This document shows positions 28,314-32,796 of a stretch of 64,000 nt of DNA, in pieces. The stretch spans positions 1 to 64,000 of the forward strand of contig QHVB01000024.1 of NCBI GenBank assembly GCA_003222195.1, given 5' to 3'. The notes beneath the pieces are model-generated. The model was given only the letters and a program-made list of their open reading frames with translations, made no database searches and was not told the DNA's origin. This DNA comes from Gemmatimonadota bacterium (GTDB lineage: Bacteria > Gemmatimonadota > Gemmatimonadetes > Gemmatimonadales > GWC2-71-9). The stretch's first letter is position 1. Each line of letters begins with the position of its first letter. The translations under genes were made by a program, and so were the position numbers.

Positions 28314-28362
28314 CCGTGCCCTGAAGGGCCGGCTCGGCTACTTCACGAGTCCTAAAGGACTC
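28314..28362 (-). repeat. 3'-end two-hairpin repeat element, copy 4
   Basis: On the minus strand, sense to sufU and overlapping its last codons. Hairpin 1 is GAGTCCT-TT-AGGACTC, an entirely different stem from the other copies but still self-complementary. The linker GTGAAGTAGCCGAGCCG contains the sufU stop codon. Hairpin 2 is GCCCT-TC-AGGGC, followed by ACGG. Confidence 0.65.
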
Positions 28363-28895
28363 GCGCTCCCGGCTGCGTCCTCCGCCCCCTCCCCTACCAC
28401 GACGCCCGCCGCCTCTCCCTGTCTCGCAATCTCTCGGCGGAGCTCGGCAATCTCCTCGTCCGAGTGCCCAGCTGCGCGAAGCTTCCGATTCATCTCGACC
28501 GTCTTCACCGCCGCCTTGAGCGTCCCCAGCGCCAGCAGCGCGCACCCCGGCCGCGCCTCGGCGATGTCGCGGCCGAGCAGGTCGATCAGCTGCTCCGGAG
28601 GCAAGGACAGGATCTCTTCGAATGACGGATGATCGCGATTGACCCGTTCGGCAAGAATCGATGCCGCCGCCTGGCTGAGCGTACACCCCGCACCCTCCCA
28701 GCCGACGGCGGCGATTCGACTTGCCTCCACCCCTCCCCCGTCCCCCGTCCCCGCTCCCTTTAGGTACATCGTAATCACATCACCACACCCCGGATTGCCG
28801 CCCGGCACGCGCGCGTCCGCGTCCGCCAACGCGCCGCGATGACGCGGGCGGTGGTAATGATCGACCAGCCAGGCGATGCGGGTCTCGCGATCCAT
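28338..28895 (-). CDS. sufU: SufU/IscU-like iron-sulfur cluster assembly scaffold
   Basis: 185 residues from ATG 28895. The three scaffold cysteines are in NPGCGDVITMYLK, WEGAGCTLSQAAASIL and RPGCALLAL, matching SufU/NifU-N proteins. An upstream in-frame extension is rejected because the ATG overlaps the sseA stop by one base (TAATG). The last 40 residues are a longer and less conserved Gly/Ala-rich tail, ending inside a repeat element that supplies the stop codon. No sufS, sufB or sufD is nearby. It likely works with the sulfur-transfer protein encoded just upstream. Confidence 0.82.
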   Translation of the reverse strand: MDRETRIAWLVDHYHRPRHRGALADADARVPGGNPGCGDVITMYLKGAGTGDGGGVEASRIAAVGWEGAGCTLSQAAASILAERVNRDHPSFEEILSLPPEQLIDLLGRDIAEARPGCALLALGTLKAAVKTVEMNRKLRAAGHSDEEIAELRREIARQGEAAGVVVGEGAEDAAGSASPLGLVK

Positions 28896-29782
28896 TACGG
28901 CTTCTCGATCGGCGCCTTCACCGTGTTGCCCCACTCCGTCCACGAGCCGTCGTAGTTGCGCACGTTCTTGAAGCCGAGGAGATAGGTCAGCGCGAACCAG
29001 GTGTGCGACGACCGCTCGCCGATCCGGCAGTAGGCGACCACGTCATCGTTCGCGCCGAGCCCGTTCTCCGCCTCGTAGATCGTCCGCAGCTCCTCCGCGG
29101 GCCGGAAGGTATGCGTCTCGGGTGTCACCGCCCGCCCCCACGGAATGCTCTTCGCGCCCGGGATGTGCCCGCCGCGCAGCGCGCCTTCGTTCGGATACTC
29201 CGGCATGTGCAACCGCTCGCCGCGATACTCCTCAGGGCTGCGCACATCGACCAGCTCCCCGCTCCGCTTCACGTGCTGCTCCACCTCGGCGCGGAACGCG
29301 CGGATCTTCGAGTCGTCGCGCTCGCGTACCGTGATGTTGCCCTGCGGATACTTCGCCACTTCGGTGACGAGCTCACGCCCCTCGTCCGCCCAGCGCAGCC
29401 GGCCGCCGTCCAGGATCCTGAGCTTCTCGACGCCGAACAGCCGGAACACCCAGAAGGCGTACGTCGCCCACCAGTTGTTCTTATCACCATAGAACACGAT
29501 CGTCGTGTCGTTGTTGATCCCCTTCGCGCGCAGCAGCCGCTCGAAGCGCGCGCGATCGACGTAGTCGCGCACCAGCGGATCGTTGAGGTCGGTTACCCAA
29601 TCGATCTTCACGGCGCCGGGAATGTGCCCAGTCTCGTACAGCAGCACGTCCTCGTTCGACTCGAGCAGGCGGACCTTGGGATCGTTCCGATGCTCCTCCA
29701 CCCACTGGGTGGAGACCAGCACCTCGGGACGCGCGTAGCCACGCGCCGAGATGTCGGATACGGCAGCTACTGTCTGTGGCAT
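28895..29782 (-). CDS. sseA: thiosulfate/3-mercaptopyruvate sulfurtransferase, two rhodanese domains
   Basis: A 295-residue tandem rhodanese protein. The inactive first domain spans about residues 20-140 ([16 protein letters not shown], then [17 protein letters not shown]). The second, about 160-290, carries the active-site cysteine in [11 protein letters not shown] (Cys252). It should transfer sulfane sulfur from thiosulfate or mercaptopyruvate to an acceptor. ATG 29782 follows a strong GAGGAGGAGTC. It is translationally linked to sufU. Its leader contains a Cys-rich open reading frame and an intrinsic terminator, so expression is probably attenuated in response to cysteine. Confidence 0.92.
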
Positions 29783-29806
29783 GACTCCTCCTCATGGTTT
29801 CGTACA

Positions 29807-29820
29807 CACCCTGAAGGGTG
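29807..29820 (-). other. small hairpin in the sseA 5' region
   Basis: CACCCT-TC-AGGGTG forms a six-base-pair stem 25 nt upstream of the sseA start. It uses the same loop as the 3'-end repeat hairpins but lacks their linker, so it is listed separately. Confidence 0.3.
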
Positions 29821-29832
29821 CTTTAGCCTGTC

Positions 29833-29880
29833 CAACAACAAAAACGGCCGTGGTTCCGAAATCCTCCGGGGACCACAGCC
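29833..29880 (-). terminator. intrinsic terminator in the sseA leader (attenuator)
   Basis: On the minus strand a 12-bp stem with one mismatch pairs GGCTGTGGTCCC (29880-29869) with GGAACCACGGCC (29857-29846). It is followed at once by GTTTTTGTTGTT. It lies between the sseA promoter and the sseA start and so would end transcription early unless melted. The 3' arm ACGGCCG (29851-29845) is also complementary to the last sense codons of the Cys-rich leader reading frame. Confidence 0.7.
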
Positions 29881-29909
29881 GCGTCACACTCCGAAACTCC
29901 TCGCCTACA

Positions 29910-29963
29910 CTACGGCCGCCTCCCGGGCAAATGGGGCATGGTACAGGGACAGGCCGCGCACAT
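29910..29963 (-). CDS. Cys-rich leader peptide upstream of sseA
   Basis: A 17-residue open reading frame, MCAACPCTMPHLPGRRP, starting at ATG 29963 and ending at TAG 29912-29910. Three of the first seven residues are cysteine (TGC, TGT, TGT). There is no clear Shine-Dalgarno. The predicted transcription start is only about 14 nt upstream, so translation may be near-leaderless. Codons 15-18 contain CGGCCGT, which can pair with the 3' arm of the terminator hairpin 60 nt downstream. A ribosome stalled at the Cys codons would leave that segment free as an antiterminator; one reaching the stop would cover it. This is inferred from sequence logic. Confidence 0.6.
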   Translation of the reverse strand: MCAACPCTMPHLPGRRP

Positions 29964-29983
29964 CGTGTAGACCATTAGCTAAG

Positions 29984-30012
29984 TAGCTAGACAGCTCAGT
30001 AACCGATGTCAA
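29984..30012 (-). promoter_or_regulatory. predicted sigma-70-type promoter of the sseA leader
   Basis: A perfect -35 TTGACA (30012-30007), a 17-nt spacer and a -10 TAGCTA (29989-29984) on the minus strand. The expected start is near 29977. The 312-nt gap 29783-30094 holds this promoter, the leader reading frame, the terminator and a small hairpin. Confidence 0.6.
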
Positions 30013-30094: not shown

Positions 30095-30861
30095 ATGAGC
30101 GGAGCGGCGCAAGGCCGCCCGATCCGCGTCGTCCCGATGCGGGGCGGCGGGCTCCTCGTCGCCGCCCCGGCTCCGGTCCTCGCGCCCGCGAAGGCGAAAC
30201 TCACCTATCGGGGTGGGCCGCTCTTGAGCGCCGTCCAAGTCGTCACCGTCTTCTGGGGAGCGGCCTGGGATGAAGCGACGGCAGACGCCACGGCGCACGG
30301 CCTGAACGCCTTCTTTCAATTCGTGGTCACCAGTCCCTACATCGACCAACTCAGCGAATACAACACGCCACAGCAGAAAATCGGCGCGGGGCGCTATGTG
30401 GGAACGGCCCGCGTTACGAACAGTGCGCCCGGCGCCAACGTGACGGACAGCGCGATCCAGGAGCTGCTCCAGGCGGAGGTGGCGCGCAAGGCGCTCCCCG
30501 CGCCGACGGCGAACACCGTCTACTTCGCGTTCTTACCGCCGGGGGTCACGGTAGTGGCCGGGAGCGAGCGCTCCTGCCAGGCGTTCTGCGGCTATCACGA
30601 CCGCTCCGCCGGCGGGCTGTATTACGCGGTCGTGCCGTACCCCAATTGCTCGGGGTGCCTGGGCAACCTGCGGTCGCTCGACGCACTGACGTCCGTCTGC
30701 TCCCACGAGCTCGCGGAGGCGATCACCGATCCGGTGCCCGGCCAGGGGTGGTACGAGACGCCAATGGCGAGATCGGCGACATCTGTGCCTGGCAGAACAA
30801 GACGCTCGGCGCCTACGAGGTACAGCTGCTCTGGTCGAACCGCGCGAAGGCGTGTGTTTGA
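30095..30861 (+). pseudogene. frameshifted secreted protein with SHELAEAITDP motif (EXORDIUM/PHI-1-like?)
   Basis: From ATG 30095 (AAGGAG ribosome site) the frame encodes a conserved-looking protein with VVTVFWGAAWDE, ITDPVPGQGWYE and several cysteine pairs, and the SHELAEAITDP motif, a possible metal site. After TGG TAC the natural continuation DANGEIGDICAWQNKTLGAY lies in the -1 frame and stops at 30861. The original frame instead runs into an Arg/Ser-rich tail to 30892. A single missing base at about 30756 explains it. The motif pattern recalls EXORDIUM/PHI-1-like proteins, but assignment is tentative. A sequencing error is possible. Confidence 0.65.
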
Positions 30862-30885
30862 GCTTCGGTTTATATTCGGTGCCTC

Positions 30886-32796
30886 ATGCTGAACGCGTCG
30901 CAGCTGGCTGCCGCTACCGCGCCTCCGTCCCCGCTCCTCATCATCGCCGGCGCCGGCACCGGCAAGACCAACACCCTCGCCCACCGCGTCGCGCACCTCA
31001 TCACGGCCGGCGCGGATCCGGGTCGCATCCTGCTGCTGACGTTCACGCGACGTGCGGCGGAAATCATGACCCGTCGCGCCGAGCGAATCGTCGGCAAGAA
31101 GACGCGGATGTCGTGGTCGGGAACGTTTCACTCGATTGCCAACAGACTGCTACGGCTGCACGCGAATACGGTGGGATTAGATCCGAGCTTCACCGTCCTC
31201 GATCGTTCGGACTCCGCCGATCTCCTCAACGTCGTCCGCAACGATCTTGGCTTCGCCAGGCTCCCGGCGCGATTCCCCAGGAAAGATACGTGCCTCGCGA
31301 TCTATTCCCACGTCGTGAACACGCGCGGAGCGATCGAGACCACGCTGAAGCAGTCGTTCCCGGCGTACGCCGATTGGGTCGAGCAGCTCAAGGCTCTGTT
31401 TCTGGGCTATGTCGAGGCCAAACAGACGCGAGCGTTACTGGACTACGACGATCTGCTCCTCTACTGGTTCTATCTCGATGGAGAGCTAATTCGTAGGCGA
31501 TTCGATCACGTGCTCGTGGATGAGTATCAGGACACGAATTCGTTGCAAGCCGAAATCGTCTTGAAGCTCGGCACGTCGATCACCGTGGTCGGCGATGACG
31601 CGCAGGCGATCTACGCGTTCCGCGGTGCGACGGTGCGCAACATCCTCGACTTCCCGAGCCACTTCGATCCGCCCGCGACGGTCATCAAACTCGAGCAGAA
31701 CTATCGTTCGACGCAGCCGATTCTCGCCGCCTCGAACGCCGTCATTGGTCTCGCCGCCGAGAGCTACAGGAAGAACCTGTTCTCCGAGCGGCGGTCAGAG
31801 CAGCAGCCGTTGCTCGTGGCCGCGAAAGATGAGCAGGCGCAGGCGGACTATATAGTAGAAAGGGTGCTGGAGCAGCGCGAAGCGGGCATCCTCCTGCACC
31901 ATCAAGCCGTCCTGATGCGCGCCGCGCACCATTCCGATCTCCTCGAAATCGAGCTCGGCAAGCGGAACATCCCGTTTGTGAAGTATGGCGGGCTCAGGTT
32001 TCTCGAAGCGGCGCACGTCAAAGACGTGCTCTGCATTCTGCGTTGGGCAGAGAATGCTCGAGACGATCTCGCCGGATTTCGCGTGCTCCAGCTATTGCCG
32101 GGCATCGGCCCGGCGCACGCACGCCGAATGCTCGATGGAGGGACAGTCCCACCCGGCCTCGCGGAGCTGCTGGATGCATTGCGGCATGCCACGCAGTGGC
32201 CTGGCCAGCTCGGCATGGTGCGCAAATGGTACGAGCCGCATCTCGAGCGACTCTACGAGGGAGCCTCGGTTCGCATCGCCGACCTGGAAACGCTCGAGGG
32301 CCTCGGCCGCAATCACCAGAGCCGCGAGAGCTTCCTCTCCGATCTCACGCTGGATCCCCCCGAAGCGCTCGGCGATCTCGCTGGCGACCCGCTCATCGAT
32401 GAGGATTACCTGATTCTCTCGACTATCCATTCGGCCAAGGGCCAGGAATGGGACGTCGTCTACATCCTGAACGTGGTCGACGGCTGTATTCCCTCGGACA
32501 TGGCGACGGGGAGCAAAGAAGAGATCGAGGAGGAGCGGCGGCTGCTGTACGTCGCGATGACGCGAGCGCGCGATCACCTCTACCTGATCCAACCGCATCG
32601 GTTTTACACGGGGACGAGTCGTCGGAATGGCGATCGACATGTGTATGCGCCGCGGACGCGGTTTTTGCCGGATGCCGTGTTGGAGTCATTCGAACGAGTG
32701 GCGGCGGGGGGCGGCGAGAAAGAGGCGGCGGCGGAGGGCGGCAACAACGGCGCGGGAGTCAACGTCGCGGCGAAGCTCCGGGAGATGTGGTCATAG
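30886..32796 (+). CDS. UvrD/PcrA/Rep-type ATP-dependent DNA helicase
   Basis: A 636-residue superfamily 1A helicase. Motif I is AGAGTGKTNT (Walker A, residues 21-28), motif II VDEYQDTN, motif III GDDAQAIYAFRGA, motif IV QNYRST, motif V TIHSAKGQEWDVVYI and motif VI VAMTRARDHLYL. The protein is slightly shorter than UvrD and lacks the long C-terminal extension; it ends in a Gly-rich tail (AAGGGEKEAAAEGG). Probable roles are repair or replication restart. It begins 24 nt after the frameshifted gene. Its end overlaps the convergent methyltransferase by 6 nt. Confidence 0.93.
   Translation: MLNASQLAAATAPPSPLLIIAGAGTGKTNTLAHRVAHLITAGADPGRILLLTFTRRAAEIMTRRAERIVGKKTRMSWSGTFHSIANRLLRLHANTVGLDPSFTVLDRSDSADLLNVVRNDLGFARLPARFPRKDTCLAIYSHVVNTRGAIETTLKQSFPAYADWVEQLKALFLGYVEAKQTRALLDYDDLLLYWFYLDGELIRRRFDHVLVDEYQDTNSLQAEIVLKLGTSITVVGDDAQAIYAFRGATVRNILDFPSHFDPPATVIKLEQNYRSTQPILAASNAVIGLAAESYRKNLFSERRSEQQPLLVAAKDEQAQADYIVERVLEQREAGILLHHQAVLMRAAHHSDLLEIELGKRNIPFVKYGGLRFLEAAHVKDVLCILRWAENARDDLAGFRVLQLLPGIGPAHARRMLDGGTVPPGLAELLDALRHATQWPGQLGMVRKWYEPHLERLYEGASVRIADLETLEGLGRNHQSRESFLSDLTLDPPEALGDLAGDPLIDEDYLILSTIHSAKGQEWDVVYILNVVDGCIPSDMATGSKEEIEEERRLLYVAMTRARDHLYLIQPHRFYTGTSRRNGDRHVYAPRTRFLPDAVLESFERVAAGGGEKEAAAEGGNNGAGVNVAAKLREMWS

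Follow-up and report, generated by a model that had tools for sequence, protein, structure and literature searches.

The sseA-sufU operon described here is very likely preceded by a ribosome-mediated, cysteine-responsive transcription attenuator, as judged from sequence comparison and RNA folding. In the 64,000-nt stretch of Gemmatimonadota DNA that we analysed (the window), which comes from a Gemmatimonadales MAG, the minus strand has a promoter upstream of sseA, then a short ORF that contains three Cys codons and, between this ORF and the gene, a terminator (Table 1). The promoter (TTGACA, a 17-nt spacer and TAGCTA) lies where the original prediction for this region had placed it, and the intrinsic terminator with a T-tract that had been proposed between the leader ORF and sseA is likewise present. 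Neither was flagged in the window by a generic scanner; TAGCTA agrees only weakly with the -10 consensus, and the stem-loop is of a longer, bulged form. Because the upstream gene is divergent, the terminator before sseA does not serve an operon further upstream. Rfam covariance models gave a single chance match in the window (E 9.4), located outside the leader element.

Table 1. Positions of the leader element and neighbouring genes in the window
Feature	Position	Strand	Basis
Divergent upstream gene	30095-30892	+	Gene order in window
-35 hexamer TTGACA	30007..30012	-	Sequence
-10 hexamer TAGCTA, 17-nt spacer from -35	29984..29989	-	Sequence
Leader ORF MVYTMCAACPCTMPHLPGRRP*, 21 codons, ATG 29975 located 8 nt past the -10 box, predicted leaderless	29910..29975	-	
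Cys codon 6 (TGC)	29958..29960	-	Leader comparison
Cys codon 9 (TGT)	29949..29951	-	Leader comparison
Cys codon 11 (TGT), C-x-C pair common to 8/8 genus leaders	29943..29945	-	Leader comparison
Antiterminator strand (region 2), leader ORF end	29912..29926	-	Predicted pairing
Antiterminator hairpin formed by the leader end and the terminator 5' arm, dG about -26.5	29866..29926	-	Folding
Intrinsic terminator stem-loop, dG -24.8 kcal/mol	29844..29882	-	Folding
T-rich tract TTTTTGTTGTT	29834..29844	-	Sequence
REP-like repeat GGACAGGCTAAAGC...CACCCTTCAGGGTG, intergenic, after the terminator and before sseA	29803-29833	-	
Shine-Dalgarno of sseA AGGAGGAG, AGGAGG-type	29785..29792	-	Sequence
sseA, two-domain rhodanese, thiosulfate sulfurtransferase SseA type	28895..29782	-	Pfam PF00581
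Second gene, NifU_N / SufU-like Fe-S assembly protein	28338..28892	-	PF01592, E 1e-14

Compared with solved structures, the sseA product matches Rhodanese 1uar best (E 6e-117), with Thiosulfate sulfurtransferase sseA 3hzu further down (E 5e-101). The product of the second gene falls below the cut-off of the TIGR01994 SufU model, and a NifU_N/SufU-like homologue is found near sseA at all loci of the genus.

The Cys leader and terminator are present at all eight of the detectable sseA loci from the same genus, that of the window included, while two incomplete genomes of the genus gave no sseA match. Seven further leaders occur in g13, a genus of the same family, each having at least two Cys codons and a terminator, as do the 8/8 leaders of the window's genus; no leader was seen in the g13 member L018. 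Across the genus, SseA proteins share about 79-91% identity with that of the window, whereas leader peptides from different subgroups mostly share just 16-29% when the CxC anchor is set aside (the exceptions being L004, with 39-44% identity to its nearest relatives, and the three closest leaders, with 78-83% among themselves). Since the peptide diverges while SseA is conserved, it is the Cys codons and not the peptide that appear to be kept. The comparison of relatives that had been suggested with the original prediction therefore came out in its favour, with Cys codons and terminator retained in the genus, and these conserved parts, together with the codon-to-stop-to-stem spacing and the low conservation of the peptide, support its core claim that a Cys-responsive attenuator precedes sseA.

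The reading frame is longer than was originally proposed. The 17-codon frame at 29963-29910 exists, and its codons 2, 5 and 7 encode Cys, but its start is most likely truncated. There is an in-frame ATG 12 nt upstream (29975 versus 29963), and in the relative L005 the ATG of 29963 is replaced by ATC while the equivalent of 29975 is kept, so we consider ATG 29975 to be the most likely start of the leader ORF. A strong -35 hexamer (TTGA start, at least 5/6) is found in 31 of 34 leader loci, and in 22 of these 31, including the window, an in-frame start codon (ATG or GTG) lies 5-9 nt past the -10 hexamer, compared with 1.15 expected from shuffling of the intervening DNA. This spacing makes a leaderless leader the best reading, with transcription probably starting at or beside the leader ATG. 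In some g13 leaders the start lies further downstream, and one of these has an SD-like sequence. The final Cys codon is TGT in 14/15 of the curated leaders; in seven genes of the window (a small sample) the TGC:TGT ratio is 15:5, opposite to the TGT of the final Cys codon in leaders L003-L022.

To survey sseA upstream regions more broadly, we collected 188 distinct sseA homologues, of which 90 came from searches of Gemmatimonadota genomes, 30 from the class to which the Chloroflexota locus L066 belongs and 68 from mixed-phyla contigs, and scanned the 500 nt before each. The scan looked for an ORF of 8-45 codons in which two Cys codons stand no more than two apart and, within 110 nt after this ORF, for a hairpin of -10 kcal/mol or lower with a T-rich tail. 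Both were found at 35 of the 188 loci, against 2.5 expected for shuffled ORFs with real terminators. Other amino acids were nearer to expectation (Ala, 44 versus 23.5; Val, 22 versus 11.5; Leu, 30 versus 16.5), and apart from Met, for which the count of 7 versus 0.5 expected is biased by start codons, no amino acid approaches Cys. The same scan of the reverse strand matched 0/188 loci, and control windows from gene flanks matched 5/372. Detection was conservative, as a likely leader at L135 was missed through the gap limit.

The matches include other Gemmatimonadota families and Chloroflexota (L066/L133 (MMTMPLYPPAVCCPTCCCTQRF...), L067 and L083). Beyond the two genera conservation is patchy, and the leader is missing from many sseA homologues, some of them in the same family. 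On a tree of 91 SseA proteins the leader requires at least 11 gains or losses, compared with 22.9 if shuffled, a clustered but patchy distribution that fits vertical descent, transfer or repeated origin alike. The Actinomycetota sseA loci L090, L101, L102 and L109 have no Cys-cluster ORF within 500 nt upstream. A covariance model of the genus leaders, searched against ten genomes of the genus, found the sseA copies only and no second copy per genome; the next-best match (E 1e-4) looks like an ordinary terminator and was set aside. The genome has eight PALP-family (cysteine-synthase-like) genes, and a Cys leader plus terminator was seen before none of them, so that no wider Cys-leader regulon emerges. 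A scan of the genome for the pattern TGYTGYTGY was uninformative.

A hairpin with a T-rich tail follows the ORF in 15/15 curated leaders (dG -16 to -40; 18-41 nt past the ORF stop), and the sseA Shine-Dalgarno sequence lies downstream of this hairpin and takes no part in the predicted competing structures. The gap between the T-tract and sseA is only ~20-35 nt in L004 and L013, too short to hold a second promoter; a promoter within this interval, which the original prediction had named as evidence that would speak against it, is thus contradicted at these two loci. In the window the interval contains GGACAGGCTAAAGC...CACCCTTCAGGGTG, further copies of which lie elsewhere in the genome, one of them (G000:C17:231044-231086) between argC-like and argB-like genes. 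L005 has a fuller form, and most other leaders of the genus are without it. Its recurrence before an argB-like gene suggested a small riboswitch, but it is mostly absent from the genus leaders, has other copies in the genome and has no Rfam match, and it is treated here as an inserted REP-like repeat.

The antiterminator was originally proposed as a 7-nt pairing (CGGCCGT/ACGGCCG) of the leader end with the 3' arm of the terminator. This complementarity exists, but it is possible because CGGCCG is palindromic, and the 5' arm is the likelier partner. The predicted duplex with the leader end is stronger for the 5' arm in 13 of 15 leaders (L020 is a tie and L008 a clear exception), on which grounds we favour it over the 3' arm; the antiterminator is most likely formed, in the manner of trp, by the ORF end and the 5' arm. 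We modelled a stalled ribosome by placing it on the last Cys codon, assuming that its leading edge reaches 12 nt past the first base of the A-site codon, and by folding the exposed RNA as it stands before synthesis of the terminator 3' arm. Folding energies in this model are -23 to -46 kcal/mol, with 7-18 nt of the 5' arm engaged, whereas with the ribosome at the stop codon the same folding reaches only -2 to -12 kcal/mol.

Over 24 Gemmatimonadota leaders the antiterminator interaction is stronger than in dinucleotide shuffles (mean z -1.9; the loci are related, so that a pooled z overstates their independence), and nearly all of the pairing partners sit within the stretch that a ribosome at the stop codon would shield. 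In this set the Cys-to-stop spacing is 30-54 nt and the stop-to-stem spacing 11-37 nt. The antiterminator of the window by itself is not above chance relative to shuffles (p about 0.2), nor is the pairing at seven Chloroflexota loci, and it is weak in several g13 loci. For the full window RNA at equilibrium with a stalled ribosome, the model still favours the terminator (P 0.96); the switch would therefore have to rely on co-transcriptional kinetics, with the antiterminator forming first.

From the parts of the element, their order, spacing and conservation we infer its start site, translation, stalling, direction of response and kinetics, basically as follows. Transcription would start at or beside the leader ATG, so that translation of the leader would begin at the 5' end of the transcript. 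When Cys-tRNA is ample, the ribosome would reach the stop codon and mask the end of the ORF (region 2), and the hairpin and T-tract would then halt RNA polymerase ahead of sseA. With Cys-tRNA in short supply, the ribosome would stall on the Cys codons, 10-18 codons before the stop, leaving region 2 free to pair with the terminator 5' arm before the 3' arm exists, and the polymerase would read into sseA-sufU. Under this scheme sseA is most likely switched on only under cysteine shortage.

The same Cys leader might instead act by translational (SD-sequestering) attenuation or through Rho-dependent control, the hairpin being secondary. A leaderless Cys-rich ORF is the layout found in mycobacteria, where control is described as translational or has been suggested to involve Rho-dependent termination (PMC1262725, PMC9031893, PMC13236596). 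Against this, every curated leader is followed by a hairpin and T-rich tract, the Shine-Dalgarno sequence of sseA is beyond the hairpin and outside the competing structures, and the T-tract comes to within about 20-35 nt of sseA in L004 and L013; we regard such control as unlikely here.

That the ORF encodes a functional Cys-rich microprotein (e.g., metal-binding, through CxC), with the hairpin merely its terminator, is very unlikely. The CxC pair is conserved in the genus and a hairpin with T-tract does follow the ORF, as this explanation would have it, but the peptides are mostly 16-29% identical between subgroups outside the anchor, compared with about 79-91% for SseA, and the Cys arrangement itself is variable (CxC, CC, CCC). 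In addition, sseA would be left without its own promoter where the gap is 20-35 nt, and the antiterminator pairing in Gemmatimonadota is above chance. A random short frame with Cys codons beside an ordinary terminator is consistent with the statistically unremarkable pairing in the window taken alone; set against the conservation across genera and the Cys-specific enrichment (35 loci versus 2.5 expected), coincidence is extremely improbable. We therefore retain ribosome-mediated transcription attenuation as the preferred reading.

Among known systems, the E. coli trp attenuator has an SD-initiated leader with Trp codons, a 2:3 antiterminator that competes with the 3:4 terminator, and a region 2 that a ribosome at the stop codon masks. 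The sseA element is similar in having its regulatory codons before the leader stop and, in our models, a region 2 that would be masked and an antiterminator that would compete with the terminator; it differs in its predicted leaderless initiation and in its codons. It has both a conserved, Cys-enriched leader ORF and an intrinsic terminator between this ORF and the structural gene, the marks of a trp-type attenuator.

Mycobacteria have Cys-rich leader ORFs before cys operons, with no conserved terminator hairpin (Seliverstov et al. 2005, PMC1262725), and their leaderless polycysteine sORFs are cysteine-responsive translational attenuators (Canestrari et al. 2020, as summarised in PMC9031893, PMC9094748 and PMC13236596). 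As far as these summaries describe them, the polycysteine sORFs resemble the leader found here, which is also a short Cys-rich ORF, apparently at the 5' end of the mRNA, before sulfur genes. The present leaders differ from the mycobacterial ones in their intrinsic terminator and predicted trp-like antiterminator, in their target (sseA) and in their occurrence in Gemmatimonadota and Chloroflexota. Control without an intrinsic terminator characterizes the mycobacterial group, and because all of the curated leaders have one, we do not class the sseA leader with the polycysteine sORFs; it most likely works as a cysteine-sensing, trp-type attenuator, set apart from the mycobacterial Cys leaders by its terminator.

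The uORFC-8-2 motif of Rhodobacterales cysS has tandem Cys codons and an intrinsic terminator, and is predicted to attenuate according to Cys-tRNA supply (PMC8632094). It shares with the sseA element a Cys-codon uORF followed by an intrinsic terminator and predicted ribosome-mediated attenuation, but it precedes cysS in alphaproteobacteria, whereas the present target is sseA in Gemmatimonadota. The S. lividans trpL1, leuL2 and ilvL leader peptides are leaderless and have Rho-independent terminators (PMC8079986), and so are similar to the predicted sseA leader in their leaderless transcription followed by a hairpin and U-run; their codons (Trp, Leu and branched-chain) and targets (amino acid biosynthesis or aminoacyl-tRNA synthetases) are different. 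The S. lividans metL leader (MSTTSDRTPATEATTTPGARCMCRRMCAF), located before metNIQ, is described as methionine- and threonine-rich (PMC8079986); it also has a C-x-C...C cluster and is a possible Cys leader. A literature search for Gemmatimonadota attenuators or an sseA leader peptide returned nothing relevant within the limited library searched.

On balance, expression of the SseA-type sulfurtransferase is probably under the control of a widespread class of leaderless, cysteine-sensing transcription attenuators that spans at least the phyla Gemmatimonadota and Chloroflexota. Such a class would extend cysteine attenuation with an intrinsic terminator to these phyla, of which we found no earlier description in the library searched, and would place the probable leaderless leader-ORF layout outside the actinobacteria. 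The physiological role of SseA-type rhodaneses is uncertain, and the leader offers a functional clue, as some of these bacteria appear to couple sseA to cysteine supply. If the proposed control is correct, the main role of the enzyme in these bacteria would be tied to cysteine shortage, for example in the supply of sulfane sulfur.
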